Source of the DNA: a virus
Length of the DNA stretch: 21,447 bases
IMG/VR virus record: IMGVR_UViG_3300012929_000045
Coordinates: 1 to 21,447 of that record
Direction: 5' to 3' (one strand)
The first letter of the stretch is position 1, and each line of letters opens with the position of its first letter. The position numbers were made by a program, and so were the translations under genes. Shown piece by piece: positions 4,881 to 21,447 of this stretch. The notes beneath the pieces are model-generated. The model did not search any database. It was not told the origin of the DNA and saw only the letters and a program-made list of their open reading frames with translations.

Positions 4881-7800
4881 CTAAATGCTCCGCTTCTGCG
4901 CGCGCTGCAGGGCGAGCGCCAGCTGCCCGCTGAGCTGCCCCTGTGAGGCGCGGAAGCTGCCGATGTCTGGGGTCTGAATGTTCATGACGACCTGAATCGG
5001 CCTGCCGCTCTCCATCCGCGTCGGGATCTTGCCGCCTTGCAAGGGGATCACGGCTTCCGGCCCGGATTCCCCCACCATGGCCAAGGTGGGGCGGTTCACC
5101 AGCCCGCCGGCGGCGAACGCCGGGATCGCGATCCCGGCGAAGCCTGGGGAGACCCCGCCGAGCAGGGCCACCGCCGCGCTCGGCCCCAGCGCACCGCCCA
5201 GCGAGGCGGTCACATCGACGCCGCCGACGGCCGCCGTGGGGGCGAGCAGGCTGCCACCAATGGCGCCCGCGCCGCCGGAAGGGAAGAGGCTGGCGAGCCA
5301 CCCACCCCCCCGGCGCCACCACCAGAGGAGCCGCCCGCCATGGCAGACAGGGCCGCGGTCGCCTGCACCACGGCCCCGGTGAAGGTGGTGAGGGCACTGC
5401 TCGCGATCCCGGCGGTCGGGGCCAGCCCAGTCGCGCCACCCGCGACACTGCCGACGATATCCGACCACGATTTGCCGGCATTGGGAAACAGGGAGGTGGG
5501 CAGGATGGAGGCGATCCAGCTCCCCACCGATGAGCCGGCCTCGGCGAGACCACCGCCACCCTCTGGCGTCTTGGTCAGGCCCAGCGCGCTGCCGACGCCG
5601 CCGAGAAAATTGCGCGCCACGCCGACGAGCGGTTCCGTGAATAGCGTGCGCGTCAGGCCGCGCGACAGCTCTTCCATGAGCCCCTGGCCAAAGGCCTTCA
5701 CATCGAATTTTCCGGTGGTGAACAACTTCACGAAGGCATCTTCGACGGCTTCGATGCCGTGCAGGGCCAGCTCTTGGAACTGCTCCCAGCCGCTCTTGCT
5801 GTTCTTGAGGAACTCGCCCAGCGGGTCTTTTTGGCGGTCGAGCATCTGTTTGAGCGCGGCGTTGCTCGTCACGGCCGCCCGGATCCGGGCGACGTCCGCC
5901 TCGCCCACGTCCTCGCCCTTGGTGGCCTTGAAGGCGTGGATTTGCTTGAGCACCTCCAGCTCTTTCTCGCGCTCGGCTGGCATGAGCCCGACCAGCCCCA
6001 GCTGCGCCGCGAGGAGGGCGTTCTCGTCGCCCAGGTCCTTGAGCACCTTGGTGATGTCGTAGGCCTGATTCTCCTGGCGGATGGCCTCGGTGATGCGATG
6101 ATGCTGCTCTTCCAGCCCCTGCAGGGCCACACGCCGCGCCTCATCGTTGGCCGGGTCGTACACCTCCGGCTGGCGCAGCTTCTGCATGGCCGTCTCGAGG
6201 GCGCTGGCCTCGCGCCGGAGCGCGGAGAGCGTCTCGGTGTGCGTCTCCTCTGGCGTCTGCGCTTCTGACAGCCCAAGCCCGAGCTGCGACTGGCTCTCCG
6301 AGAGGGTGTTGGCGAGCGTCTTGGCGGTGTCCCCGATCTCGATCGCGGCCTTCTGGCGCCGGATGGCCTCGGCGGATTGATCGTAGACGTGCTTGAATTT
6401 GAGGACCTCGGCGGAGAGCGGGCTATACCCGGCCTCGATCATGCGCTTGATGCCGCTTTCGGCCTCGCGCATGCGATCTTCGGCGGCTTTCAGGCTATCG
6501 CCGAAGAGGGCTTCAGCGGCGTCGATGGCGGCGAACTCGCGCGATAAATCCTGCAGGAGATTGAGTGCTTCCTTGCTACGCCCGAACGCCTCACTCTGGG
6601 CGTGCGCCTGCTGGAAGCCGCGCCCCAGCTCGCCGAAGACCTTGTCGGTGCTCGGCACGCCGAGCCCCTGCAGCTCTTCGATCGCCTTCTTGTAGGCCTC
6701 CGCCTTGGCCTTGGCGGGGTCAAAGGTGGGCCCCAACAGCTTGGCCTTGGCGTCGATGGCGGCAAATTCCGTGTCGAGCTTCTGGCGCGCCGCCCGTACC
6801 GCGTTGGCGATCTCGTTTGGTTTGGCATCGACGGTCGTGGATGGACCCGTGAGGCTTTTGGTCAGGCCCGATCCCAGTGTGACCTCGGGGGGCTTGGCCC
6901 CGGGGCTCAGGGCCTTCTTGGCCTCCTCCAGGCGCTTCGTCAGCTCGGCCCGCTTGCCGGGGTCAATCGTCTTGTCGAGTTCCGCCTGCATGGCGCGCAT
7001 CACATCACCTGAGCCCGCCATTTGCTCGTTTTGCGCCTTGAACTGCTGCTCCAGTTGCAGGGTACGCTGCTGGGCGGCCAGTTGGGCATTGCTCATCTGC
7101 TGGAGCTGGTAGACCACCAGCGCCAAGGCGGCGGCGGCCGCGATCGCGCCCACGACAATGATGCCGGCAGTCCCCAGGAATGCCGCGATACCAGCCAGTG
7201 CACCGATGGCCGCCGAGGCGACTCCAGCCATGGAGCCGATGGAGGAGATGAGCGTACCCAGCGCGAAGGTGACCGGTCCCAGGGCAATCAGGAGCCCTGT
7301 CAGGCCGATGACCATCTCCTGGATTGGGACGGGGAGCTGCGCGAAGGCGGTGACCGCTTGTGACGCCATGTCGAGCAGCGCTTTGCCGAAGTCGACGAGC
7401 GCCTTGACGGCCGGCTGGAGCTGCTCACCCGCCTGTGTCGCGAAGACCTGGAGTTTCGCCGAGATCTCACTCAGCGCTTGCCCGGTCGTCGCCTTCATAT
7501 TCTGGAACTTCTCGGTGACGCCGCTGGAGGCCCCCTGGATGGTCTGCAGGGAGTCGCGGAACTGATTGGCTTGCGTGCCAGCCGTGGCCATCACGCCAGC
7601 CAGGGCGCGTGTCTCGGGCACCAGCTCTTTGAGGGCGCCCACGTCGCCATGCGCCGCTTGCACCAGGCCGATCAGCGTCTCCGTGAGCCCCTTGCCGCCT
7701 TGCGAGGGATCGCGTAGATTGGCCCGCACTTCGAGGACGGACGTCCCGAGGTGGCGCAACGCCTCGATGACGCCCGGTGTGGGCGCGGATAATCCCAGGA

Positions 7801-8482
7801 GGAGGGCGCGCAGCGAGGTGACGGCTTCTTCGGCACCGACGCCCTGCCGCGTGAACGACGCCACGAAGTTGGCCGCCTCGGCGAGGCCGACGCCCGCCGA
7901 CGCCGCCACCGACACGACACGCCCCATGGAGCCCGCCAGCTCGTTGGCCTCGGCGCCCCCGACTTCGGTGGCGCGGGCGAGGATATCGCCCGCCTCGGCC
8001 GCCTTAAGCGAGCTCCCCTGATACGCGTTCATGGTGCCGACCAGCAGGCGCGCGATGTCGACCGTCTGCCCCATGCCGGCCGCCGACGCCTTGGCGGCGA
8101 CGGTCAGCACCTCCATGGCCGCGGCGCCCTTAATGCCGTTGCCGGCGATGAAGTAGAAGGCGTCGATCAGCTCTTGCGGCCCCTTGCCGACATCGGCGGC
8201 CAGGGCGTTCAACGGCCCGCGGATCTGCTCGACCGCTTCCCGGCTCATACCGCCGAAGTTGACGATCTTGGTGATGCCGGTTTCCAGCTGGTTGGCAAAA
8301 TGCACCGCGGCGCCGGCGGCGGCGCCCAGGGGGGCGGAGATGCCGAGGGAGAGGCCCGCGCCGGCCGATTGCAGCTGACTGCCAAAGCTCCGCAGACGGG
8401 CGCCCGCCGCATCGAGCCCGGACGTAAAGCCTGAGGCGTCGACGGTCAAGCGCGCGATCACGTCCCCGACGGTCGTGGCCAT
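4881..8482 (-). CDS. Tape measure protein, interrupted by a single-base frameshift near its C-terminus
   Basis: This large tail protein sets tail length and is ejected during infection; it is about 1200 residues when the frame is restored. It starts ATTVGDVIARLTVDASGFTS. A TP901-type tape measure core follows at about 60-290 (GNGIKGAAAMEVLTVAAKAS, DILARATEVGGAEANELAGS). Hydrophobic, Gly/Ala-rich segments at about 390-460 are likely membrane-active. Long charged helices (470-960) then resemble coiled coil. The written frame stops at 5210 with an aberrant Pro/Ala/Ser tail. Adding one base to the G7 run (5305-5311) restores GGWLASLFPSGGAGAIGG and the familiar C-terminal AAGGLVNRPTLAMVGESG, then PEAVIPL, ending at 4881. 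The start abuts the T-like stop. The predicted tail is roughly 180 nm by the usual 1.5 angstrom per residue rule. Confidence 0.88.
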
Positions 8483-8848: not shown

Positions 8849-9201
8849 AAAGGGTCGGCACCGTCTGCCGTCGGGGCAGACTCCGACGCACGGCCGTTGC
8901 TCAGCGCGGCCGTAAAGGCCTCGGTGATCTTCTGGCTGACCAGGCCGATGTGCTCCAGCTCGAGCAGCTCGCCGGCCTGCTCCAGGGTGAGGGACGGATC
9001 CTCATGGCGCAGCCCGGCCCACATCACCACGAGCAGGTCGGTAAAACTCACCTCGCCCCGCTGGAACAGGGCCAGGAGGTTGAGCTTGGGCACCCCGTAG
9101 ACCCGCTTCAGCTCGTCCTCGGCCAGCTTCATGGCCCCGAGGGTGAGCCGCAAGGTCCGCGGTTTGTCCAACTCCAGGGGCACGCTGAGTTTCCAGGGCA
9201 T
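8791..9201 (-). CDS. Tail assembly chaperone, short form (lambda gpG-like)
   Basis: This 136-residue protein, when read without frameshifting, lies between the major tail gene and the tape measure gene, where the lambda G/GT chaperones are found. It contains PWKLSVPLELDKPRTLRLTL, then helices (MKLAEDELKRVYGV, FTDLLVVMWAGL, LEQAGELLELEHIGLVS). After about residue 105 the zero-frame tail becomes Thr/Ser/Ala-rich and low complexity. Tail chaperones coat the tape measure protein during assembly and are absent from the virion. AAGGAG lies four bases before the ATG. The slippery site at 8848-8854 falls at codons 117-118, so some ribosomes are expected to enter the -1 frame and make the longer form. 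Confidence 0.85.
   Translation of the reverse strand: MPWKLSVPLELDKPRTLRLTLGAMKLAEDELKRVYGVPKLNLLALFQRGEVSFTDLLVVMWAGLRHEDPSLTLEQAGELLELEHIGLVSQKITEAFTAALSNGRASESAPTADGADPLTTSSTGSSSGAEAATTSA
8848..8854 (-). promoter_or_regulatory. -1 programmed frameshift heptamer C CCT TTG
   Basis: In the frame of the short chaperone the bases read C CCT TTG, an exact X XXY YYZ heptamer. A slip of -1 re-pairs both tRNAs on CCC and TTT and continues as GAC GAC GAG in the frame of the downstream ORF. A 7-bp GC-rich hairpin with a 4-nt loop (8815-8832) begins 15 nt downstream and could stimulate slipping, though that spacing is longer than usual. This matches the lambda G-T arrangement in position and direction. 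Confidence 0.75.
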
Positions 9202-9209
9202 GGGGCTCC

Positions 9210-9650
9210 TTAGACGAAGGTCGGCGCGCCCGCGAACTTGAGGCTGGCATCGAACGTCAGGATCGCCTTGGCGTCGGCCTTGGGGCTCATTTCCATGACC
9301 ACCATCGCGGCATCGATCTCCAGCGGCGAGGGGTCACCGGGGAGGCCGGGGAAAATCAGCTGGTAGTTGGCCTGGTCGCCGGCGATGAAGTGGCTCAAGA
9401 GGCCGGTGGTCGCGTCCTGGGTGGCGTCCTCGGGGATGAAGTTGCCGGCGATCTTGATCTCCGCCTCTTTCATGCCGGGGACGAATTCCTTCCAGCTCGA
9501 CGGCGTATCGTGGTTACTGGCGTCCAGGTCGTCGGCCTTGAACGTCGTATCAATTTTGGTGAGCTCGGCGATGGTGGTGAAGCTCTCCGGGCTGCCGCCA
9601 TCGCCCAATTTGAGCAAGGTGCCTTGCGCCCGTCGGGCTTGCGTGGCCAT
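9210..9650 (-). CDS. Major tail (tube) protein
   Basis: This 146-residue protein matches the short siphophage tail tube subunit, which stacks as hexameric rings around the tape measure. Hallmarks are MATQARRAQGTLLKLGDGGS at the start; FTTIAELTKIDTTFKADDLD (about 24-43) followed by ASNHDTPSSWKEFVPGMKEA, the typical 'tD-S-w-e-pGl-d-g' block of tube proteins; and a beta region ending in KADAKAILTFDASLKFAG. Length is normal, with no extra Ig-like domain. GGAGGA lies six bases upstream of the ATG. The tail assembly chaperones and tape measure follow immediately, as usual. Confidence 0.88.
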   Translation of the reverse strand: MATQARRAQGTLLKLGDGGSPESFTTIAELTKIDTTFKADDLDASNHDTPSSWKEFVPGMKEAEIKIAGNFIPEDATQDATTGLLSHFIAGDQANYQLIFPGLPGDPSPLEIDAAMVVMEMSPKADAKAILTFDASLKFAGAPTFV

Positions 9651-9716: not shown

Positions 9717-10097
9717 TTACGGCGTGGCGTCCACGCCCACGCCGAGCTTGACCGTCGTGCTCAGGCTGCCCGAGGTGGTAATGTAGAGCTTGGTGATGTC
9801 TGAGGCGCCCAAGAACAAGTCTTCCGAGTCGGTGTAGGACCAGACGAGGGGCACATTCGCCGTCAGCTCCAGCGCGACGCCGCTCGTGGTATTGATCTCG
9901 ACCGTGCAGTCGTGGTCAGCCTCGATCGCCGCCACCCTGACGGCGGACACGTCGATGTGGACATCGACCTCCTGATCCGAGCCGATCACGGTCGCGCTGA
10001 CCACTTGGGCGAGGTCGGTCGCAATGGTCTGCACCGTGCCCCCAATCGTGACCCCGCCGATGCTGAGCGAGCGGCTTAATTTATGATTCAGTGCCAT
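9717..10097 (-). CDS. Structural protein upstream of the major tail gene, unknown function
   Basis: This 126-residue protein is Thr/Val/Ser-rich and predicted all beta: LSIGGVTIGGTVQTIATDLA, DQEVDVHIDVSAVRVAAIEA, CTVEINTTSGVALELTA and KLYITTSGSLSTTVKLGVG. It has no signal peptide. Position between the tail terminator and major tail genes and a virion-like composition suggest a tail or head surface component, but I do not recognise a named family. I choose the start at 10097, with GGAGGAGAC ending about six bases upstream, rather than the in-frame ATG at 10124. Confidence 0.6.
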   Translation of the reverse strand: MALNHKLSRSLSIGGVTIGGTVQTIATDLAQVVSATVIGSDQEVDVHIDVSAVRVAAIEADHDCTVEINTTSGVALELTANVPLVWSYTDSEDLFLGASDITKLYITTSGSLSTTVKLGVGVDATP

Positions 10098-10317
10098 GGC
10101 TGTCTCCTCCGATGCGGTTGCCAAAGGCGTCGTACAAGCGCCCGGACCCGCCGGGCGTGGCTGCGTCCGCTGCCGGCTCCGGGCCGTGCAGCTCGTCGTA
10201 GTGTTGCGCCAGGATCGTCAGGCTGAGCGAGTCAAAGGGGCATTCCAGGCATTCATACTTGGGCCGCCCGCCCCAGGGGCGCCCCATCCGGTAGTGTTCG
10301 CCCTCGACCAGCTCCAT
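10081..10317 (-). CDS. Small C2H2 zinc-finger-like protein
   Basis: This 78-residue protein opens MELVEGEHYRMGRPWGGRPK and contains YECLECPFDSLSLTILAQHY followed by DELH. That gives Cys23-x2-Cys26 and His39-x4-His44, the spacing of a C2H2 zinc finger. The C-terminus (GPEPAADAATPGGSGRLYDAFGNRIG) looks disordered. Bacterial and phage C2H2-like fingers of this kind occur as small unexplained proteins near tail genes; nucleic acid or protein binding is possible, but no role is established. Its ATG overlaps the upstream stop by one base (TAATG), with GGAG just before. Its 3' end overlaps the next gene by 17 nt. Confidence 0.7.
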   Translation of the reverse strand: MELVEGEHYRMGRPWGGRPKYECLECPFDSLSLTILAQHYDELHGPEPAADAATPGGSGRLYDAFGNRIGGDSHGTES

Positions 10318-10721
10318 TACTCCGCCTCCCGGTGCACGGCATAATTGCAGGCCACCAGGGCCCGGTTGCTCGGGTCCGGCCCGACATCAAAGGGGCTCTG
10401 CAGCGCCTCGACGCCGAGGTAGCGCACCCCGGAGGTGAGGGTTTCGCCGTTGATCAGACTGAACGCATGCAACACCGCCCGCGCCGTGGCCATGGCTGAC
10501 TGGTAGGTGGGCGCGCGCACGATGACGTGCAGGCGCCCCTCCTCGGAGCTATAACCGGTCTGCCCCAGCAGGCGTCCTGGGGGCCGGCCTTCGTACTCGA
10601 TCAGGCCGATGGCCAGGTCGGGGGCCCCGGTGTCGGGGAGATCGGATTTGTAGAGATCGATTCCCACCTGGGCCACGCCTTGATCCTCCAGGTAACGCGC
10701 GAGATCATCTAAGAGCGGCAT
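10317..10721 (-). CDS. Tail terminator / minor capsid-like protein
   Basis: This 134-residue protein has an N-terminal helix (LLDDLARYLEDQG), a strand with IGLIEYEGRPPGRLLG, then RLHVIVRAPTYQSAMATARAV at about 64-84. It ends in strands GVRYLGVEALQSPFDVGPD and LVACNYAVHREAE. This helix-strand order and length match phage minor capsid / tail terminator proteins that cap the tail tube where it meets the neck. Position just before the tail tube genes fits. It overlaps the end of the frame-corrected glycosyltransferase, showing that the neck/tail gene series was split by the modification block. There is no clear ribosome binding site, so translation is probably coupled. Confidence 0.75.
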   Translation of the reverse strand: MPLLDDLARYLEDQGVAQVGIDLYKSDLPDTGAPDLAIGLIEYEGRPPGRLLGQTGYSSEEGRLHVIVRAPTYQSAMATARAVLHAFSLINGETLTSGVRYLGVEALQSPFDVGPDPSNRALVACNYAVHREAE

Positions 10722-11938
10722 CGACGGGTTCCTGGTCCTGCAGCACCGCCGTCAGCGCCACGTGGAAGCGCGCCGCGATCGACGCCCAGCGAAAGCGCTC
10801 CTGCTGGACGCGTTGTAACCCCTGCGCCCCCCAGCCAGGCGCGGTGCTCCGGCATCTCATACAGCGCCTGCAGGCCGTTGATGAAGCCCTCTTGATCCGG
10901 GATGCCGCCCACGGTATTGATCCCCCGCGGGGTCACCGCGTAGCTGGTACACGGGATCAGATGCGCCGCCCCCTGGGCCCAATCGCCCAGCCCAGCATAG
11001 TCGCCGGCGAGCTGCGGGATGCCGCAGGCCATGCCCTCCATCGTCGGCAAGCCCCAGCCTTCGCCCTGGCTGGTATTGATCTGCACGTCGAAGGCGTTGT
11101 AGATGGTGCGCAGGGTGTCCTCAGGCACTCCCGCGATCGCCTTCGTCCCGCGGCCGGTCAGCAGCAGACGCTCCTGGAGGCCCCAATAGTCGGCCAGCTG
11201 CAGGAGGTCGATGCCGACATCGCGGGTGGCGCAGTGGAGATAGAGATAGGCGTGGTCGATCGGCTCCCGCCTGATCCACTCCGCCACGTAGAGCAGGCTC
11301 AGGTCCAGCCGCTTGCGCGGTTGATTGCGCCCGACGTTGCCGACGATGTAGGCGTCCTCCGGGATCCCCAGGGCACGGCGGCAGGCGCCTCGATCCATCG
11401 GGTAATACTGCGCCAGGTCGACGCCGTGCGGGATCACCAGGGATGGCCCGGTATAGCCGCAGCGCTCGGCTTCGTGCTGCGCCCACTCGGTGTACCAGAT
11501 GGCCAGGTCCAGGCCCTCGGCCAGCGCCTTGGCCTCGGCGATATTCGGCGCGTCGATGGGCATATAGGCGACGAGCGGCATGGTCCCGATCTTCCCCATC
11601 TTCTCCATCTTCTCCATGAGCGTCTGGTGCAGGTCGACGAACTTGCGCACGATCCAGGGATCATTGAGGAGGACCACCACGTCCGGCTGAATCTGCTCGA
11701 CCAGCGCCTGATAGCGCCCATGCCCCCAGGGGTCCCCGCCGGGTGAGGCCGGGTACATCTGGTACGGGAGACCGCAGTAATCCCCATGCCAATTGATCCC
11801 GAGCACGTGGATGTCCCAGTCGGCGTGGAGGTGCGCTAAGATGTGCTCGCTCACCCGTGCGAAGCCCGTCGTGGCGACGATATCGCCGCACCAGAGCAGG
11901 CGTGGTTTCCGCTCCGCGGCGAGGAGTTCATACGGCAT
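10705..11938 (-). CDS. GT4-type glycosyltransferase (GT-B fold), interrupted by a frameshift near its 3' end
   Basis: This GT-B fold retaining glycosyltransferase is about 410 residues after correcting one base. The N-terminal domain starts PRLLWCGDIVATTGFARVSE, with the glycine-rich acceptor loop. The donor domain has IVGNVGRNQPRKRLDLSLL (198-216) and EGWGLPTMEGMACGIPQLA (293-311), which gives the E-x7-E motif of GT4 enzymes. As written, the frame ends at 10709 with an unnatural Gly/Arg/Ala-rich tail. Removing one base from the G6 run (10827-10832, residue ~370) restores AQGLQRVQQERFRWASIAAR and a stop at 10705. That end overlaps the next gene by 17 nt, as expected. The start has GAGGA seven bases upstream. 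A perfect 9-bp tandem repeat encodes MEKMEKM near residue 110. The acceptor is unknown; virion or tail glycan synthesis is inferred. Confidence 0.82.
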
Positions 11939-12149
11939 GAGGGGTCCTCGTTTCCGCCAGGCCGCGCAGCGCGTCGGTCAACCGGATGGCGCCACCGCGC
12001 AGCTCCAGGACGACCACGGGTTCGCAGCCGAGGCGGTGCTCGAAACGCGTGGACAGGACGTTGGTCAACTCGGCGCCGTCGGCGGTGTCGTAGACGTGGG
12101 TGCCGGCGACCGCCCCGGAGGCCTCGATCCGCACGCGTAACGCGTTCAT
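11928..12149 (-). CDS. Short conserved-looking phage protein, unknown function
   Basis: A 73-residue ORF starting MNALRVRIEASGAVAGTHVY, then DTADGAELTNVLSTRFEHRL and VVVLELRGGAIRLTD. The pattern of strands resembles short phage proteins of about 70 residues that carry a 'VRIEA-G' opening and sit among structural genes; I do not know a function. GGAGG lies 11 bases before the ATG, and an in-frame ATG at 12173 is possible. It lies 29 nt after the second methyltransferase and its stop overlaps the GT4 start by 11 nt, so it is embedded in the modification block. It might be a substrate or virion component rather than an enzyme. Confidence 0.6.
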   Translation of the reverse strand: MNALRVRIEASGAVAGTHVYDTADGAELTNVLSTRFEHRLGCEPVVVLELRGGAIRLTDALRGLAETRTPHAV

Positions 12150-12178
12150 CCTCGGCCGTCCCTCCGCCGCCATGGCGC

Positions 12179-12742
12179 TTAGACGCAGGTCATCCATAGT
12201 TTGCCCACCGGGTTGGTCGCGTCCGGGACGCACTCGGCCAGGGCCCGCTGCACACCCGGAAAACCGATGTCATCGCCGCACAGCAATCCGCCGCGGCGCA
12301 AGAGCTGGCGATACGCCAGGAGGTCATGGCGCACCGAGGCGTAGTCGTGGCTGGCATCGATGAAGACCAGGTCAAACGGCTCGCCTGAGAGCTGTATTGC
12401 GGCCTCAGCACTACTCATGCGCCAGACCTCGACTTTGCCCTGCAGGACCAGGTCGGAGACGTTGACGGCAAACTCCCGATAGAGGGCGGTCGCCCCGCGC
12501 TGGTCCACCTCGCGCGTGGTCTCGTCGGCGCCGACGGTGGAGCCGCGCCAGTGATCGACCACGGAGACCACCCCGGGCGTGTGCTCGGCCAGGGCGCGGG
12601 TGGTGCGACCCTTCCAGCTTCCGATTTCGCAAATTCGCATGGCCTGCTGCGCTTGTTGCGCCAGCCAAGTCAGCTCCTCTGGCGACATCCAGCCATGTAT
12701 GAGTAATGACCGAGAGATATCGATGGTGGAGATGGCTCGCAT
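12179..12742 (-). CDS. Class I SAM-dependent methyltransferase (Methyltransf_24-like)
   Basis: This 187-residue enzyme has motif I as ICEIGSWKGRTTRALAE (38-54), then VVSVVDHWRG (58-67), and FDLVFIDASHDYASVRHDL at about 123-141. It ends with YRQLLRRGGLLCGDDIGFPG. The IDA-HDY and GG-GDD pattern is characteristic of the Methyltransf_24 group, linked to O-methylation of sugars and polyketides. I place the start at ATG 12742, where the recognisable protein begins; the frame is open to 12892, but those residues lie within the preceding gene and look like frame shadow. Two unrelated methyltransferases side by side suggest a multi-step modification of one glycan. Confidence 0.8.
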   Translation of the reverse strand: MRAISTIDISRSLLIHGWMSPEELTWLAQQAQQAMRICEIGSWKGRTTRALAEHTPGVVSVVDHWRGSTVGADETTREVDQRGATALYREFAVNVSDLVLQGKVEVWRMSSAEAAIQLSGEPFDLVFIDASHDYASVRHDLLAYRQLLRRGGLLCGDDIGFPGVQRALAECVPDATNPVGKLWMTCV

Positions 12743-13311
12743 GAGCGCTCTTGCCTCTCTCGTCTGGCAAAAATGCGTAAATTTTGCGGATACCACCAAC
12801 ATGGTCCGGCGATCTTTTCCCATGCGTGGCGTACCATCTCGGTCATCTCCGGCTTGAGGATCAGGCCGGCCTTGCCGAGCTTCTCGACCCAATACGCATG
12901 CGGTTGCTCGTTGATATGCCCATCGCCGCCTTGGCCAGGTGTTGCCGCCGTGAAGAACAGGAATGTGCCGACATGCCGCGCCAGCGACTCACAGTAAGTG
13001 TCTGCGGCCGATGCCGGGAGATGCTCCGCGACTTCCCAGGAAATGACCCAATCAAAGGAGATTCGCGATAACCGCAGTGGCTTTGTGAGGTCCGCCTTGA
13101 AAACCGCCAAGGCTGGCCGCTCTATGCTCATGTCAGATCCCAGGGCATCGATGCCAAGCTGAAGTGCACCGCGCGGGATATGCCCCTCACCGCACCCCAT
13201 GTCCGGCAACGTCTTCGGTTTCTCGAAGAGATGCAGCAGCGTCACAAAGCAGCCCCAGCTCCATTGCTGCGTCCAGCGGTGATTGGCCTGCCAGTCGGCG
13301 TCATACCGCAT
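12670..13311 (-). CDS. Class I SAM-dependent methyltransferase
   Basis: This 213-residue Rossmann-fold methyltransferase has motif I as LPDMGCGEGHIPRGAL (35-50), an acidic residue after the second strand (GSDMS, D60), FKADLTKPL near 71-79 and the post-motif WVISWEVAEHLP (88-99). These mark a small-molecule, glycan or protein methyltransferase rather than a DNA methylase: there is no DPPY/NPPY motif. The substrate is unknown. I start it at 13311, where GGAG lies eight bases upstream and the ATG overlaps the glycosyltransferase stop; the longer in-frame start at 13368 would overlap that gene by 68 nt. The C-terminus overlaps the next methyltransferase by 73 nt, so the last ~25 residues may be unstructured. 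Confidence 0.82.
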   Translation of the reverse strand: MRYDADWQANHRWTQQWSWGCFVTLLHLFEKPKTLPDMGCGEGHIPRGALQLGIDALGSDMSIERPALAVFKADLTKPLRLSRISFDWVISWEVAEHLPASAADTYCESLARHVGTFLFFTAATPGQGGDGHINEQPHAYWVEKLGKAGLILKPEMTEMVRHAWEKIAGPCWWYPQNLRIFARRERQERSCEPSPPSISLGHYSYMAGCRQRS

Positions 13312-14023
13312 CGACGTAGCTCCATTCTGGACCCTGCCAGCTCTGCGCCTGATGGAACTGCGCATCATTCCCTAGCGCTGACTTGCGGCCGATATGGTCA
13401 ACGAAGCATGGCGCTGAAAACAGGAAATACTCGCGCGTTGGATAGACGGCCTGGCTCCAATCCTTCAGCATCAAATCCCAGCATGTCGTCTGCTGTGACC
13501 AGTAGGGATCAGTCGCCGCATAGCGCAAGATCGATTCCGCATTGTCCGGCGTCACGACCCAGCATTGCGTCCCATAGAAAGACCTGATGCCCAGCTCAAT
13601 CGCGCTGCCGCCGCGCTTGTAGGCGTGCAGGATTTCGCGATAGGCGCCATAGAACGAATACAGCGAGTACTCGCCCGCGTGATTCGATAGCCAGGCGTCC
13701 ACGCTCTCCAGGAAGTTGCGGCACACCACGATGTCGTCCTCACAGACGATGATCCAGTCTGCGCCGCTGTCGATCCCCACACGCAGGCAATCCATGGCGG
13801 TCTGCATGGCGGATTGCCCCAGGCGGCCGAGGTGTACCGTCGCGGGGTATGCCTTCGCATCGAGCCGGTGCGAGCGCTCCCGTGAGCCCCCATCACACAG
13901 ATGCACCACATGCGGAATCGCGCTGCGGAACACGCCGCCCCGGTCCAGGCTGGCCAGCGTCTGCGCCAGATAATTCTCGGCGCCCCGGTTGTAGGTGCCG
14001 ATGCAGAGGGCGTAGGTGGTCAT
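13301..14023 (-). CDS. GT-A fold glycosyltransferase (family 2-like)
   Basis: This 240-residue protein begins YALCIGTYNRGAENYLAQTL, the nucleotide-sugar binding strand-helix of GT-A enzymes. WIIVCEDDIVV follows at about 90-100, with an EDD (95-97) in the metal-binding DXD position. Further blocks are SFYGAYREILHAYKRGG and YGTQCWVVTPDNAESIL. The length fits a single catalytic domain with no membrane segment, suggesting a soluble enzyme acting on a phage or host acceptor. The donor sugar cannot be predicted. AGGAGG lies five bases before the ATG. Its 3' end overlaps the next gene, whose ATG lies inside the last codons, so the two are probably co-translated. Virion glycosylation is plausible from context but not shown. 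Confidence 0.82.
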   Translation of the reverse strand: MTTYALCIGTYNRGAENYLAQTLASLDRGGVFRSAIPHVVHLCDGGSRERSHRLDAKAYPATVHLGRLGQSAMQTAMDCLRVGIDSGADWIIVCEDDIVVCRNFLESVDAWLSNHAGEYSLYSFYGAYREILHAYKRGGSAIELGIRSFYGTQCWVVTPDNAESILRYAATDPYWSQQTTCWDLMLKDWSQAVYPTREYFLFSAPCFVDHIGRKSALGNDAQFHQAQSWQGPEWSYVDAV

Positions 14024-14032
14024 CCAGACCTC

Positions 14033-14776
14033 CTAGGCAAAGGGGTGGGTCCGTCCCGCCCCACTGTTAAACAACAGGCTGCGCTCGGCGCTGGTCAACA
14101 GGCGCCGCCAGACGCCGATCTCATCGGGCACGGCGTCGGCGGGGTCGATGTTGTTCGGGTTATGGCCCAGCGCGAAGCTCGCGGCCCCGGCATAGACGCC
14201 GAGGCTGTGGCTGGTCGTCAGGGGGGTACCGTTGTTTACCTGCAGCCCGATGACGTCCGTGACCGGATCATGCCACGCCACCACGCAGTGCCAGGCCTCC
14301 AGTGTAGCGCTGCCGCCGTCGACATGGACGCTATCGCTGCCGGTGGAGGACACGTACCATTGCCAGGTGCCGGCGTTGAGAATCAGAAAATATTCGCACG
14401 CCGTGCCGCCCCATTTGCCGAGCAGCGGTCGCACGTCACTGAGGCTGAGGGGATAGAACCACCCCGCGACCGTAAAGGCGCTATCGCCCCCTTGCAGATC
14501 CGGCGTACTGGCGCGACTGACGTAGCTCCCGCTGCCACAGTACAGCCCCTGGCCGATGCGTCCGGCCACCGCCAAGGCCACGCCGGTGGGGCTCAGATGG
14601 TTCCTGCGCCCGGTGGCATCGAGGCGAGTGCTGCCGCTGGCCTCCTCCAAGGCCCAGTAGGCCACCAGGCCGGTGAGCAGCGACGAGGCCGGCGCCGGGG
14701 CGGCTGGCCGCACGATGACGCTCGATTGTCCGCCTCCCATCCCGTAATGCGTCTGCCCTGCCCTGCCAAAGCGCAT
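14033..14776 (-). CDS. LamG/concanavalin-like lectin-fold protein
   Basis: This 247-residue protein has a short Gly/Pro/Ala-rich N-terminus (about 1-33), then a LamG-type jelly roll. The domain opens with GLVAYWALEEASGSTRLDAT, followed by DSAFTVAGWFYPLSLSDVRPL, YFLILNAGTWQWYVSS and EAWHCVVAWHDPVTDVIGLQ. It ends with FALGHNPNNIDPADAVPDEI and GVWRRLLTSAERSLLFNSG, the usual last strand and helix. LamG-like domains bind carbohydrates or proteins; in phages they occur in surface adhesins, head fibres and tail fibres. No signal peptide is visible. It is coupled to the 91-residue gene and lies directly before a glycosyltransferase/methyltransferase block. A virion-surface adhesin is the likely role, but the ligand is unknown. 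Confidence 0.8.
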   Translation of the reverse strand: MRFGRAGQTHYGMGGGQSSVIVRPAAPAPASSLLTGLVAYWALEEASGSTRLDATGRRNHLSPTGVALAVAGRIGQGLYCGSGSYVSRASTPDLQGGDSAFTVAGWFYPLSLSDVRPLLGKWGGTACEYFLILNAGTWQWYVSSTGSDSVHVDGGSATLEAWHCVVAWHDPVTDVIGLQVNNGTPLTTSHSLGVYAGAASFALGHNPNNIDPADAVPDEIGVWRRLLTSAERSLLFNSGAGRTHPFA

Positions 14777-15051
14777 TAGGTCACCACCTGGTAGGCCAGC
14801 ACCCGCACGGCCGCCGCATCACCAGACGCGCACAGGAACGAGCATCCGCTGGTCTGGTGCGCCAGTGCCAGTGATTCCCCAGAGGCCAGTGCGAACGAGT
14901 CGGTGGTCACCTCTCCTGCCGTCACGTCGAGATGCACGGCATCTGGCCCGTCATTGATCACGAGGCCGTATCCCAGAAAGCCGAAGAGCGCGGTCTCGAC
15001 CACGCCGCTGACGCTGATGGCCTCCGCAAACGACTCGTTGATGAATGGCAT
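14776..15051 (-). CDS. Small beta-rich virion protein, function unknown
   Basis: This 91-residue protein contains YGLVINDGPDAVHLDVTAG, ASGESLALAHQTSGCSFLC and AAAVRVLAYQVVT. The pattern resembles short beta-sandwich proteins common in phage structural operons, often with a 'GPD-V' strand, a 'GE-L' turn and a late 'A-VRV-A' strand. I cannot assign a precise role; a surface or decoration protein is the likeliest guess. A GAGGGG precedes the ATG by about six bases. Its stop overlaps the start of the next gene by one base (TAATG), indicating translational coupling with the lectin-like protein and suggesting that the two act together. Confidence 0.6.
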   Translation of the reverse strand: MPFINESFAEAISVSGVVETALFGFLGYGLVINDGPDAVHLDVTAGEVTTDSFALASGESLALAHQTSGCSFLCASGDAAAVRVLAYQVVT

Positions 15052-15061
15052 CGATGCCCCC

Positions 15062-15502
15062 TCACCCCGCCAGGGCCCGGCTGATCGCCGCGGCCAGCTC
15101 TTGCAGAAACGTCGCCGTCTCGCGCGTGAACGGCCCCTCGAGGTATTTCCACTGCCCGACCTTGGCCCAATGCTTGTAGGACCGGCCGCGGGGGCTTCTT
15201 CCGCCCGTCCGGCCAGCCCTAGGATTCTCGTGGACCTTCAGGGCGTACCGCGCCGCGGCGCCGCCGTAGCCCATGGTGACCTCCAGGGTGCGCCCGGTGA
15301 GCGTCGGCCCTTGCACGTGTCCACTACTGCGCAGGCGCCCGGTATCGACGGGCACCTCCGCCTTACTGGCGGTCATGATGCGCTCGCCCTTGTGGCGCAG
15401 GTAAGCGGCCACGATGGTCATGGCTTTGGCGTCCAGCTGTTTGAGCTTGGCTTGGAGCTCTGTCTGACCCCTGATATCAACCTTGGCGACAATCGTCGAC
15501 AT
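15062..15502 (-). CDS. Tail completion / neck protein (HK97 gp10-like)
   Basis: This 146-residue protein matches the HK97 gp10 family of neck proteins that sit between the head connector and the tail terminator. Supporting features are the N-terminal MSTIVAKVDIRGQTELQAKL helix pattern and AEVPVDTGRLRSSGHV at about residues 48-63, the family's 'P-x-D-T-G-x-L' hallmark. These are followed by a beta strand and ARYALKVHENP near 85. The C-terminal half has a basic Gly/Arg loop (RAGRTGGRSPRGRSYKHW), then a helix (TATFLQELAAAISRALAG). Length is normal. The ribosome binding site is weak (AGGTGG), and translation may be coupled to the mini-ORF ending 7 nt upstream. Confidence 0.87.
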   Translation of the reverse strand: MSTIVAKVDIRGQTELQAKLKQLDAKAMTIVAAYLRHKGERIMTASKAEVPVDTGRLRSSGHVQGPTLTGRTLEVTMGYGGAAARYALKVHENPRAGRTGGRSPRGRSYKHWAKVGQWKYLEGPFTRETATFLQELAAAISRALAG

Positions 15503-15596: not shown

Positions 15597-15890
15597 CTAG
15601 CAGTACAGCTTGACCACCACGACGTGGCCCAGATCATCGACGTAGCGCTCGACTTTGACCAGGGGCGGTTGCGTGCCGTCGGGCAGCGTCAGGCGATCCT
15701 CGGGGCTGATCGGGTCGCCCGTGTTGAGCCACGAGACGGTGTCGGCGTCGAACACCTGGCCATCTTTGCTGCGGTACGACTTGCTGATGTACGTGACCAT
15801 GGCCTTATAGGTGACGGCCGCCCCAAAGACGGGCGCGCCATAGGCGTCCCGCCCGCTGAGCGGCTCGATGGTCACCGTCATGGGGAACAT
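15597..15890 (-). CDS. Head closure / stopper-like protein
   Basis: This 97-residue protein has the size, beta-rich character and position of head-tail joining proteins (SPP1 gp16 / HK97 gp7 class). These form the ring below the connector and hold DNA in until the tail joins. Visible blocks are VTIEPLSGRDAYGAPVFG, a central MVTYISKSYRSKDGQ and a terminal RYVDDLGHVVVVKLYC. It starts 23 nt after the connector stop and has no strong ribosome binding site; an in-frame ATG three codons in (15881) is an equally possible start. Assignment rests on size, predicted fold and gene order rather than a diagnostic motif. Confidence 0.7.
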   Translation of the reverse strand: MFPMTVTIEPLSGRDAYGAPVFGAAVTYKAMVTYISKSYRSKDGQVFDADTVSWLNTGDPISPEDRLTLPDGTQPPLVKVERYVDDLGHVVVVKLYC

Positions 15891-15913: not shown

Positions 15914-16522
15914 CTACACCCCGTGATCGCGGATAAACGGCTGGATCAGGCGCTCCACAATGGGCGCCAAGCCAATGGCGGAGTTTTTGTCTGGCTGCCC
16001 ATTGGCATTGCCGTAGGCGGTGTACAGATCGCCGATCTTCTGCTGGACGATCGTGCTGCCGGTCTGGTTGTGGTAGCGCTCCGCCGTCTCGATCTGGACC
16101 GCCAGCTTGGCGTTGCGCCGCACCTCATAGGCGGTGTCCCACAGCCCCGCGTCGAAGCTGATGTGCCAGAGCCCTGTCGGTATAGGCCAGCGCGAGGTAT
16201 GCAGGAGTTGGCCCTGCTCGCTGAGCAGCGTGTAGTCGTCCGCCTCGACCGTGTGCCCGTCGTCATCCTCGATCGAGAACACGCGCGGCACCGGTGCGCG
16301 ATTCAGGGTGATCACCCGACTCCCCCCGCGATGCGGCAAGATGCCCCCGGCGTGGTGCTCGGTGCGCTCGCGCACGATGAAGAACGTATGGCAGAAGTCC
16401 TCGATCGCTTGCTGTGCGCTCTCAACCAGGGCTTCTATCAGCTCCTGATCGTCGTCATTCGTCAGGCGCAGGTACTGCTTCACCTCGGCGTATTCGACGA
16501 TGCTGTAGAGGTCCACGGCCAT
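15914..16522 (-). CDS. Head-tail connector protein (HK97 gp6-like)
   Basis: This 202-residue protein is a gp6-type adaptor that forms a ring beneath the portal and links it to the neck. The N-terminus has the family's helical pattern: YSIVEYAEVKQYLRL, then DDQELIEALVESAQQAIEDF near residues 22-42, followed by a beta region (VITLNRAPVPRVFSI) and a C-terminal helical part (EVRRNAKLAVQIETAERYHN) near 155. The frame is open upstream to 16912, but I place the start at 16522: this ATG has AGGAGA seven bases upstream, gives the normal family length and avoids a long overlap with the preceding gene. Position after the capsid gene and before the head-closure gene fits the connector role. Confidence 0.85.
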   Translation of the reverse strand: MAVDLYSIVEYAEVKQYLRLTNDDDQELIEALVESAQQAIEDFCHTFFIVRERTEHHAGGILPHRGGSRVITLNRAPVPRVFSIEDDDGHTVEADDYTLLSEQGQLLHTSRWPIPTGLWHISFDAGLWDTAYEVRRNAKLAVQIETAERYHNQTGSTIVQQKIGDLYTAYGNANGQPDKNSAIGLAPIVERLIQPFIRDHGV

Positions 16523-17185: not shown

Positions 17186-18448
17186 CTAGTCGTTATCGCC
17201 GATGATAAAGGCGTTCGAGCGCAGTGGTTGGCCGCCCGTGCGCGCCGTCGCCAGCAGCGCCACGTTGGGCGCGTAGCGTTCGACGAGGCGCTGCACGCGC
17301 AGGTCGCGGCGGTCAGCGATGGCGTAGTAGCTGAAGTCGCCAAACACGAGGCTCTTGTTCGTATGCGTGTTCCCGTCCGGCATGAACTCACTGGTTTTGA
17401 CGGGGCGCGCCAGAATCTGGGTCGGGAGCTGATTGGGGGGGAAGATCGGAAAGCCCGCGCTGGTTTCGAGGAGGAGTACCAGGCCGTAGGTGAGCGAGTT
17501 CATCAACCAGGTGGCGCGTTGGCGATACTGCGCCGGCAGCGCCGTATACACGCCGACCAACCCGGCGTAAGTCCAATTGGTGTCATGGCCGCTATGCACC
17601 ACGTCGGCGCCGCTGTTGAGGAGGCCCATCGGCATCCCCACCCCGGAGCCCGCGATGAAGCCGTAGTCCTCATCAAGGCTCTTGGTCTCGGCCAGGATGC
17701 GCCGCACCTCGGCCTCGAGGTCGACCACGGGGTCTTCCAACATCTCCGGGGTGATTTCGATCACATTCGGCTGCCAGATATGCACCGGCACCCGCTCGCG
17801 CCCGAAGGTCGGCTGATTCTGGGTCGTCAGGGCATCGCCGCCGGTGACGGAGCCTTCGGCCTTCCAGTTGCCGGCCAATCCGGAGGGATAGGCTTTGTTG
17901 CTGGAGGCCTTGATGGTCAAAAAGGTCCCGGCGCCGCGGACGGTCGGCCGCACCCGACACATCGGGCGCATCACCGCAAAGCCGGCCATGTCGCTAATCA
18001 ACTCGGCGTAGAACTCGTCGGGGACGAGCGACCCGCCGAGCAGATCGTTGCTGCTGATCAACGCGTGGCGCTCGACCGGGCCGCGCATGAGCAGTTCGCG
18101 CTCGGCTTCATTGCACAGCGCCAGGCCGTATTGCAGGAACTTGTGCCAGGCCTCGCGGTGGGCCGACGGCCTGGCGGCCTGCGCCTCGGCGCCCCGGGTC
18201 GTGACCGTGTGCACGGGCGCGGTGTAGTGGGCATACTGTGCGTCCAGGTGGGTCTCCGCCTCCTGGCGTTTTTTCAACTGTTCGACCTCGGCATGCAGCG
18301 CGGCAAACTCGCCCATGGCCTTGTCGAACTGCTCTTGCTTGTCAGCCGGCCACACGACCGCGTCTGACAGCTCGTCCTTGATCGCCTTGGCGGCATGCAG
18401 CACCTTGAGGGCCGCCTCGGTTTTGTCCTGGATGAGTTGTGCGAGCAT
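17186..18448 (-). CDS. Major capsid protein, HK97 fold
   Basis: This 420-residue protein builds the icosahedral head. Residues 1-70 form a charged, heptad-like helix (KAIKDELSDA, HAEVEQLKKRQEAET), matching the delta domain that acts as an internal scaffold and is removed by the upstream protease. After a linker (about 70-100), the HK97-type N-arm and body begin; ALISSNDLLGGSLVPDEF at about 129-146 is a typical capsid motif. The length is usual for an HK97 capsid with delta domain. The exact cleavage point cannot be read. The start ATG has a strong GGAGG four bases upstream, consistent with high expression. The 109-nt gap after the stop carries two stem-loops without a U-tract. Assignment rests on sequence pattern and position directly after the prohead protease. 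Confidence 0.94.
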   Translation of the reverse strand: MLAQLIQDKTEAALKVLHAAKAIKDELSDAVVWPADKQEQFDKAMGEFAALHAEVEQLKKRQEAETHLDAQYAHYTAPVHTVTTRGAEAQAARPSAHREAWHKFLQYGLALCNEAERELLMRGPVERHALISSNDLLGGSLVPDEFYAELISDMAGFAVMRPMCRVRPTVRGAGTFLTIKASSNKAYPSGLAGNWKAEGSVTGGDALTTQNQPTFGRERVPVHIWQPNVIEITPEMLEDPVVDLEAEVRRILAETKSLDEDYGFIAGSGVGMPMGLLNSGADVVHSGHDTNWTYAGLVGVYTALPAQYRQRATWLMNSLTYGLVLLLETSAGFPIFPPNQLPTQILARPVKTSEFMPDGNTHTNKSLVFGDFSYYAIADRRDLRVQRLVERYAPNVALLATARTGGQPLRSNAFIIGDND

Positions 18449-19710: not shown

Positions 19711-21447
19711 TTAGGCCCCGGCGAACTCCAGGGACATCGCGCACCTGCACTGGGGATGGGCGACCGGATGCATCAACGGTCCCACCGGGGTCTGAAACGG
19801 CTCGGTCAGGCCGACGCCCCGAGGATTCATGCTGGGAATCGGCGCGCAAATGGCCTGATCGAGGCGATCGTCAGGGGTCACCAGCCAGTGTCGCCGGGCC
19901 GCGTGGGGATCGATCAGCCCCTGCTCCACCCCTTGGAGCCAGAGCTCCTGCTGGCCGGCATTGGCGCTGGTGATCGTCTCGGTCCTGGCGATCAGCTCGG
20001 CCCGGTAATTGAGCAGCTGGCGGGTGTAGCGCGCCGCGGCGGTCGCGATCGTGTCGGCCGACGTCCCGGCCTCGGTCAAGCGCGTTTCGAGGTTGGCCAC
20101 GGCCTGGGCCTGGCGGGTCGTGAGGCCGATGCGGTCGCGGATCTGCTGGGCCGCCTGGCTGGGCCCCAGGTCGCCGCTGATGGCGCGGCTGATCGTGTCG
20201 CGGATGGCGTCGCGCGTCTCGGTGCTGACCTCGGTCACCAGGCGGGCGGCATTGGCCTTGGCCCATTCCACCGCGCGCGGATTGGTCAGGTCGAAGCTGA
20301 TGCCGAGGGCCGCATCCTCCGGGAGATACGCCTGCATAGCCTGCGCCGCGTCGGCGAAGACCAGCTCCAGATGGGGCCGCAGCGCCTTGTCGAGCAGGAG
20401 CGGGCCGTTCACCTCCCAGCCGATGGCCTGCATGGCGGCGTGCACGTCGCCCGCCTCCACGGCCGCGAGCAGCTCCTCCATGGCCACCTGGCGTTGCGCC
20501 GCATCCATCGCCGCAAGGACGTCCTGGATCATGCGCTCGGCCTCGGCATCGGCGATCTGGTGCAGGATCTGCCAGAATTCGGGCTCCGTGGCCAAGCGTT
20601 CTCGGGAGATCGCGGTTGCGTGCTCGCGATGGCGCGCGTGCTGGGTACGTCGCTGCCCCACGACGGCGATCACGCCCTCCTCGAGGGCCACCTTCGTCAG
20701 CGCGCCCTCCACGTCGGAGGCGGGCCATTGGTCGAAATGCCACCAGTGGGACTCCTCGCCCGGCTCGCTGTCGAGATAGCCATGGTCGATGATCCACTGG
20801 TGTGCATCGTCCACCTGGACGAACACCTTCTTGTCAAGCAGGATGGACTGTATATTGGCCTGGTTCGGCGTCTTGCCGCCGCCGATCGACCCGGGTAAAT
20901 CGGCGGGCACCACGTCTGAGCGGATGGTGGCATTGAACACATCGCCATCGGGGACTGGGGGCTGCTTGACCAGGGCGCGCGATTCATTGCGCGTAAGCAT
21001 GCCGCGCCACCAGCCATCCAACGCCAGCCGCCGCACGCTGTCCTGGTCTTCCTGCAGCGCTGGCACTTGTGACACATCGAAGCGAATGGTCAGGTGGCCG
21101 CCGAAGTCGCTGGCCAGCCCCATCGTGAGCTTGGCGCCGAGGCGTCGGTACAGGGGCATCAGCGTCTCGATCCAGAAGCTGCGCAAGGCGGCGTTGTAGT
21201 TCGAGTAGGTGGCGCGTTCCAGCCCCGAGAGCATGCCGACGATGATGGGGGGTACGCCGAACATGGCGCAACAGCGCGTCTCGGTCTGGGACAGGATGCC
21301 GTCCAGATTGAGCTCGTTCAGCTTCTGGCCGATGTCCTGATACTCCGCGCCGCCGTCCAGCACGGCGAGACGGTTCCAGCCACGCGTGCCGCTGTACTCC
21401 TCCTGCCACAGCAGCTTGATGCGCTCACGCTCGGCTTTCTCGACCCG
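19711..21447 (-). CDS. Portal protein fused to a Mu F-like head morphogenesis domain (5' end beyond window)
   Basis: The portal forms the dodecameric channel at one capsid vertex through which DNA is packaged and the tail attaches. The frame is open to the right edge (578 residues visible), so the start lies outside; the GTG at 21363 is internal, because in-frame codons upstream still read as portal (a GTRGWNRLAVLDGGAEYQ stretch). Portal signatures continue with FGVPPIIVGMLSG and ATYSNYNAALRSFW about 60-95 residues in. A middle segment (HQWIIDHGY then SHWWHFDQWP, about residues 190-220) resembles a small domain seen in other phage head proteins. The last ~200 residues are alpha-helical and end in HPQCRCAMSLEF, the C-terminal signature of Mu gpF-like proteins. 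Portal and Mu F-like proteins are more often separate genes, so this is a fusion. It precedes the prohead protease by 10 nt. Portal call firm; F-like call good. Confidence 0.9.
   Translation of the reverse strand, partial: RVEKAERERIKLLWQEEYSGTRGWNRLAVLDGGAEYQDIGQKLNELNLDGILSQTETRCCAMFGVPPIIVGMLSGLERATYSNYNAALRSFWIETLMPLYRRLGAKLTMGLASDFGGHLTIRFDVSQVPALQEDQDSVRRLALDGWWRGMLTRNESRALVKQPPVPDGDVFNATIRSDVVPADLPGSIGGGKTPNQANIQSILLDKKVFVQVDDAHQWIIDHGYLDSEPGEESHWWHFDQWPASDVEGALTKVALEEGVIAVVGQRRTQHARHREHATAISRERLATEPEFWQILHQIADAEAERMIQDVLAAMDAAQRQVAMEELLAAVEAGDVHAAMQAIGWEVNGPLLLDKALRPHLELVFADAAQAMQAYLPEDAALGISFDLTNPRAVEWAKANAARLVTEVSTETRDAIRDTISRAISGDLGPSQAAQQIRDRIGLTTRQAQAVANLETRLTEAGTSADTIATAAARYTRQLLNYRAELIARTETITSANAGQQELWLQGVEQGLIDPHAARRHWLVTPDDRLDQAICAPIPSMNPRGVGLTEPFQTPVGPLMHPVAHPQCRCAMSLEFAGA

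Follow-up and report, generated by a model that had tools for sequence, protein, structure and literature searches.

The individual idea of a phage that glycosylates its own virion is already known. In Corndog-type phages, an O-methyltransferase and three glycosyltransferases (GTs) are encoded in the virion operon, and modification of the capsid was proposed (PMC4351075). According to the passage of PMC11600133 that cites Freeman 2023, capsid and tail tube are both targets of these enzymes. Outside the phages, a chlorovirus that carries the GT B736L glycosylates its own capsid. Here, we describe a block of five open reading frames (ORFs) at positions 10705-14023 (minus strand) of the IMG/VR virus record IMGVR_UViG_3300012929_000045, whose full length of 21,447 bases is referred to as the window. 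The position of the block, co-inheritance with structural genes, the chemistry of its enzymes and these precedents favour virion glycosylation, and it is probable that the block is a virion-glycosylation cassette with a GT of family GT4 as its core.

A GT4 enzyme with conserved catalytic motifs

In order of transcription, the block comprises a GT25-like GT of the GT-A type, a class I methyltransferase, a Methyltransf_24-type methyltransferase, a 73-residue ORF and the GT4. A previous reading, made from the sequence alone, had described such a series, and all five ORFs were present on the minus strand, with neighbours overlapping or nearly abutting. The GT4 shows the GT-B fold, the Glycos_transf_1 domain and the EX7E motif of its family. 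Both EX7E (E293, E301) and the motif RNxxRKR were invariant in 22 of 22 aligned sequences, and the EDD motif of the GT25-like protein was invariant in all four sequences aligned. The intact motifs of the two GTs were counted in favour of glycosylation. The AlphaFold model of the GT4 is confident (predicted local distance difference test (pLDDT) 90, predicted template modelling score (pTM) 0.89). In profile searches, its best PDB match was B736L of chlorovirus NY-2A (3oy2) with an E-value of 9.4e-35, followed by the next entry at 1.5e-11. B736L was also the best structural match of the model, with a Z-score of 40.3 and a root mean square deviation of 2.2 over 365 residues (next Z-score 35.1).

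In the window, a one-base indel in a C run near position 10830 puts the last ~40 codons of the GT4 gene out of frame. The near-identical contig (L002/L003; relatives are numbered with the prefix L) is 99.93% identical to the window over 16.3 kb. The two are a single indel apart, located inside the GT4 3′ end, and in L002/L003 the GT4 is uninterrupted with 410 amino acids.

Recurrent location beside head-tail joining genes

Apart from the near-identical contig, a first scan of IMG/VR yielded 28 loci whose GT4 identities were 38-46%, and in nearly all of them the GT4 adjoins homologues of neck, terminator, connector or tail-tube genes. A profile-based scan gave at least 564 GT4 relatives, of which the best 80 loci were used for counting locations and partners with iterated hidden Markov models. 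A locus was scored as head-tail-linked if a connector, neck, terminator, tail-tube or adaptor gene lay within 1.5 kb of the GT4 on the same strand. This applied to 74 of the 80 closest loci. Clustering of the GT4 sequences at 90% identity left 66 clusters, of which 60 were linked in this way, and clustering at 60% left 45, of which 41 were linked; in the latter set, 36 abut within 20 bp. Among the six exceptions, four carry directly before the GT4 a homologue of the 181-residue gene of L038, which is adaptor-like judging from its position. L177 has a neck gene at 2.4 kb, and L113 is unexplained. The arrangement connector/GT4/neck was the commonest. Others were terminator/GT4/tail tube (L008, L018), neck..GT4/terminator (the window), adaptor/GT4/connector (L056) and GT4/adaptor (nine loci). 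A fixed insertion site was considered and rejected, as the GT4 occupies several different slots among the head-tail joining genes.

Scattering of the genes away from the structural block had been regarded as evidence against the proposal, and for the GT4 it was not seen. A set of 15 contigs of 56-102 kb gave 19 matches to PF00534, every one of them within the cassette, and no GT4-type gene (PF00534) was found outside it. GT2 matches in the same contigs were fewer, some of them 6-29 kb away. Distances between GT4 sequences correlate with those of the tail terminator (r 0.64), the tail tube (0.61) and the neck protein (0.47), values comparable to the mutual correlations of these structural genes (0.53-0.56). 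Unrelated contigs repeatedly carry these genes together at comparable sites, so that the block goes beyond a chance arrangement.

A stable core with interchangeable partners

The idea that the whole block is a unit of gain and loss inserted at this site proved too simple: the partners do vary among relatives, but the GT4 is the stable core that tracks neck and tail genes. In L056, the closest head relative with a GT4 (capsid 42% identical), the GT4 stands alone. Partners in other cassettes include a DegT sugar aminotransferase together with a hexapeptide transferase, GT2, a second GT4, GT-A, methyltransferases, radical SAM/B12 proteins, an epimerase, PhyH and a cupin. This partner set is glycan chemistry. 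GT25-like matches accompany the GT4 in 14 of the 80 loci and Methyltransf_24-like matches in 13, numbers that may include broader relatives owing to the iterated models. No partner match was found in 38 of the 80 loci, some being short contigs. Radical SAM proteins with B12-binding domains were seen inside two cassettes (L014:3495-4910 and L024:6214-7854); they are possibly C-methyltransferases for a glycan. In L093, a 2OG-Fe(II) oxygenase gene (8937-9461; PF13759, 5.7e-16) directly follows the tail-tube gene, and the same neighbourhood may therefore host other protein-modifying enzymes.

Recent wholesale import of the block was rejected from its codon use, because the GT4 and the Methyltransf_24-type gene appear native and the first methyltransferase alone deviates, if mildly. 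The reference set of structural genes was slightly contaminated by a wrongly framed adaptor sequence, whose own values were disregarded. The first methyltransferase also has the lowest GC content of the block (0.584).

The GT4 tree unites most phage members with a clade of Verrucomicrobia in one group (SH-aLRT support 99), within which the window and its near-identical contig stand apart on a long branch. In the Verrucomicrobia (L039-L055), the GT4 gene shares conserved loci of the chromosome with genes for a Ser/Thr kinase, a polysaccharide pyruvyl transferase, a SASA esterase and another GT4. Annotated phage records contained only eight distant GT4 matches (25-35% identity), namely S-CBS4, S-EIVl, TJE1, phiPsal1, Mae-JY09 and one unannotated record, two of which were present twice. 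The GT4 lies inside the head genes in three of the five named phages (S-CBS4, phiPsal1, Mae-JY09) but not in the other two, and the linkage to the neck is therefore specific to this clade and not a property of phage GT4s generally. In the same annotated phages, no match was found for the GT25-like or the LamG protein, and capsid matches were below 60% identity.

Genes of the block and its surroundings

All recognisable genes of the window lie on the minus strand (Table 1). In order of transcription, the head part consists of a portal-MuF fusion, protease, capsid, a 138-residue protein, adaptor, connector, gp10/Neck1, a 91-residue protein and a LamG protein. The block is followed by the tail terminator, directly downstream of the GT4, two small proteins, the tail tube, two small ORFs at the chaperone position, the tape measure and tail-tip genes. 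The structural order on both sides had been recognised in the sequence-only reading, and phrog_5 Neck1 upstream and the terminator downstream confirm it; the 91-residue and LamG genes between neck and block had been omitted.

Table 1. Coordinates and supporting matches of the block and its flanking genes in the window
Feature	Position	Strand	Evidence and remarks
GT25-like/GT-A glycosyltransferase, 240 residues, EDD motif	13301..14023	-	Glyco_transf_25 E 0.0037; PHROG glucosyltransferase 1.3e-5
Class I S-adenosylmethionine (SAM) methyltransferase, Methyltransf_23/25/11-like	12670..13311	-	Methyltransf_23 2.7e-5; motif DMGCGEG; ORF open to 13368, 13311 likelier start
Methyltransf_24-type methyltransferase	12179..12742	-	Pfam 3.6e-18, 66.8 vs 26.3 bits (passes gathering score); ORF open to 12892
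73-residue ORF (101 residues from upstream GTG, to 12233)	11928..12149	-	Open frame only
GT4 retaining glycosyltransferase	10709..11938	-	Glycos_transf_1 8e-9; Glyco_trans_1_4 1e-8; PHROG glycosyltransferase 1.5e-32
HK97-type major capsid protein	17186..18448	-	phrog_10 2.8e-47; candidate acceptor by analogy
Head-tail adaptor	15914..16522	-	phrog_442 2.4e-18; likely start
Head-tail connector protein, upstream flank	15597..15890	-	phrog_3881 8.7e-9
HK97 gp10-like tail completion/Neck1, upstream flank	15062..15502	-	phrog_5 1.6e-6; PF04883 1.1e-4
91-residue protein between neck and LamG genes	14776..15051	-	Open frame abutting neighbours; no Pfam/PHROG family match
Laminin_G_3/ConA-like lectin-domain protein, 247 residues	14033..14776	-	Pfam 8e-13; candidate acceptor or glycan binder
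Tail terminator, downstream flank	10317..10721	-	Phage_tail_terminator_6 8.2e-10
Major tail (tube) protein	9210..9650	-	phrog_1407 8.6e-12; candidate acceptor by analogy

Profile and structure searches, which had been suggested for the four enzymes, gave clear assignments for the GT4 and the Methyltransf_24-type protein, whereas the GT25-like protein and the first methyltransferase stayed below the Pfam cut-offs. The former misses the Glyco_transf_25 gathering score with 17.6 against 24 bits. Its model is of low confidence (pLDDT 56, pTM 0.66), and its top PDB folds are GT-A (GtrB and alpha-1,3-galactosyltransferase) with E-values of about 1e-5. The first methyltransferase does not reach the cut-off of any of four class I families, with 24.4 against 27 bits for Methyltransf_23. 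The Methyltransf_24-type protein weakly matches the O-methyltransferase 6jcl (0.0043). The 73-residue ORF has no family match in Pfam, PHROG or NCBIfam and is only possibly a gene. PADLOC and NCBIfam returned no defence or equivalog assignment, and the GT4 models of NCBIfam scored far under their cut-offs.

LamG lectin-domain proteins near the GT4 were also found in unrelated phages (L038:2109-3326, L121:3836-4543). Such proteins may be acceptors or glycan-binding parts of the virion. The portal and MuF-type head morphogenesis domains form one ORF in the window (19711-21447) and two genes in L056 (3342-4748 and 4765-5748). Between tail terminator and tail tube, a 78-residue protein (10081-10317) carries a C2H2-like Cys/His motif, with weak matches to zinc-finger models (E 0.02). 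The tape-measure ORF (5210-8482, minus strand) crosses a run of seven G in the region 5300-5480, and a different frame (4881-5468) holds what looks like its natural C-terminus. No indel is present at this run in the near-identical contig. A programmed frameshift, or a homopolymer error common to both contigs, may explain the frame switch.

Proposed function and alternative explanations

Assuming that the cassette glycosylates the virion, its place in the late operon, next to the genes that join head and tail, would lead to co-expression with virion genes, and the decorated protein would come from the same transcript, most likely the tail-tube, neck, capsid or LamG protein. In this scheme, a host nucleotide sugar would supply the first or core sugar, which the GT4 would attach; extension by a second sugar would be the task of the GT25-like GT-A, and methylation by the two methyltransferases would cap the glycan. 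We infer this order of action, the donor and the acceptor. More tentatively, one might imagine that a widespread neck-linked GT4 clade, for which no close cultured member was found, glycosylates a head-tail joining or tail-tube protein during virion maturation, and that swappable partners give phage-specific sugar coats, a version which we regard as possible but doubtful.

A different acceptor is proposed by the main rival explanation, in which the enzymes act late in infection to modify a glycan of the host surface (capsule, O-antigen or exopolysaccharide), for example against superinfection or against sticking of released phage to debris. The Verrucomicrobia loci are consistent with this: there, a GT4 of the same group lies beside pyruvyl transferase, esterase and another GT4, and the acceptor could therefore be a polysaccharide. 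Several solved structural relatives of the GT4 also act on lipids, small molecules or polysaccharides. On the other hand, the cassette adjoins head-tail genes, and enzymes made together with the late structural proteins would be slow to exclude superinfecting phages. The block enzymes furthermore appear soluble and lack a GtrA-like flippase or membrane protein. A hydropathy scan found no membrane segments, flippase or multi-membrane-spanning partner in the block; means over 19 residues were all at or below 1.01 for its enzymes and at or below 1.7 for the neighbouring 91-residue and LamG proteins. Taken together, action on a host glycan seems unlikely. It is more improbable that the genes are unrelated morons at a permissive late-operon site with no shared pathway. 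The wide variation of partners, their absence from many loci (some on short contigs) and the somewhat atypical GC content of the first methyltransferase would fit such an origin, but the GT4 is constantly present in the module and co-inherited with it, and nearly all partners are sugar-nucleotide, GT or methyltransferase enzymes.

Phages are also known to use GTs on DNA (PMC12619734), so that GTs and methyltransferases could serve to hypermodify DNA by glycosylating a modified base. A thymidylate-synthase-type gene (PF00303) was found in two of eight larger relatives, and the window itself is a fragment. Since the PF00303 match is absent from the other six, the GT4 travels with neck and tail genes, and DegT, hexapeptide and Methyltransf_24 partners would better suit oligosaccharide chemistry, we consider this very improbable. 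Least probable of all is a direct structural or chaperone role of the GT4 in neck or tail assembly, with glycosylation secondary or absent. Its constant place beside neck genes in divergent phages would agree with that role, whereas the invariance of its catalytic motifs speaks against it, as does the absence of the analogous Corndog GTs from the proteins found in virions (PMC4351075).

Several points weigh against virion glycosylation as well. That the acceptor is a virion protein and that it carries a glycan is deduced and unproven, as are donor and product. B736L binds GDP-mannose best, and its acceptor is likewise unproven (PMC9614988). In L093 (capsid 40% identical), no homologue of the GT4 or of the rest of the block was detected in its contig, and the enzyme is therefore not required for this neck type. 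Furthermore, the loci include near-duplicates and are not phylogenetically independent, the contigs are fragments, and kinship inflates both the location counts and the correlations. The hypothesis of the sequence-only reading thus holds in its genomic part, with genes, families, motifs, recurrent location and interchangeable partners observed directly, and position, precedent and enzyme chemistry suggest a glycan on a virion protein.

If virion glycosylation is correct, autonomous glycosylation would be widespread among tailed phages of the environment, beyond the mycobacteriophages, given more than 560 IMG/VR matches with such a GT4, and the constant GT4 beside neck genes would be a sequence marker that predicts sugar-coated phages in metagenomes. 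One could then test which proteins of the virion carry the decoration and what purpose it serves, be it adsorption, shielding from immunity, stability or evasion of host lectins and proteases. On the more tentative reading given above, phage particles would carry lineage-specific surface glycans, similar to bacterial serotypes. A limited literature search found no description of a widespread neck-linked, GT4-centred cassette, which may still be published.

Comparison with known systems

The gtrABC serotype-conversion modules are phage-borne GTs too, and the low-confidence GT-A model resembles GtrB. However, they carry a flippase and a membrane GT, neither of which is present in the block of the window, and their genomic setting differs. 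A similar layout is seen in Pontimonas phage phiPsal1, with GT4, methyltransferase and GT2, and in Microcystis phage Mae-JY09, with GT4 and epimerase, in both cases between the capsid and head-tail adaptor/neck genes. Their GT4s are only 25-29% identical to that of the window. B736L (PDB 3oy2/3oy7), although from a virus of algae and only ~20% identical, is the closest solved relative of the GT4, and the chloroviruses also have A064R, a GT with a methyltransferase domain for methylated rhamnose, reminiscent of the pairing of GTs and methyltransferases in the window.

Corndog-type phages (cluster O mycobacteriophages) were compared using Firecracker, Dylan and Catdawg. A four-protein search gave no significant pairwise match between their enzymes and those of the window, with weak profile signals at E-values of about 1e-4 to 1e-3, and a GT4 relative was not detected in their block. 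Theirs lies between portal and protease, whereas that of the window lies on the neck side. Like the window, they have at least two GT genes and a methyltransferase in an overlapping run inside the virion operon, and the Corndog-type block, analogous without detectable homology, is the closest functional precedent.

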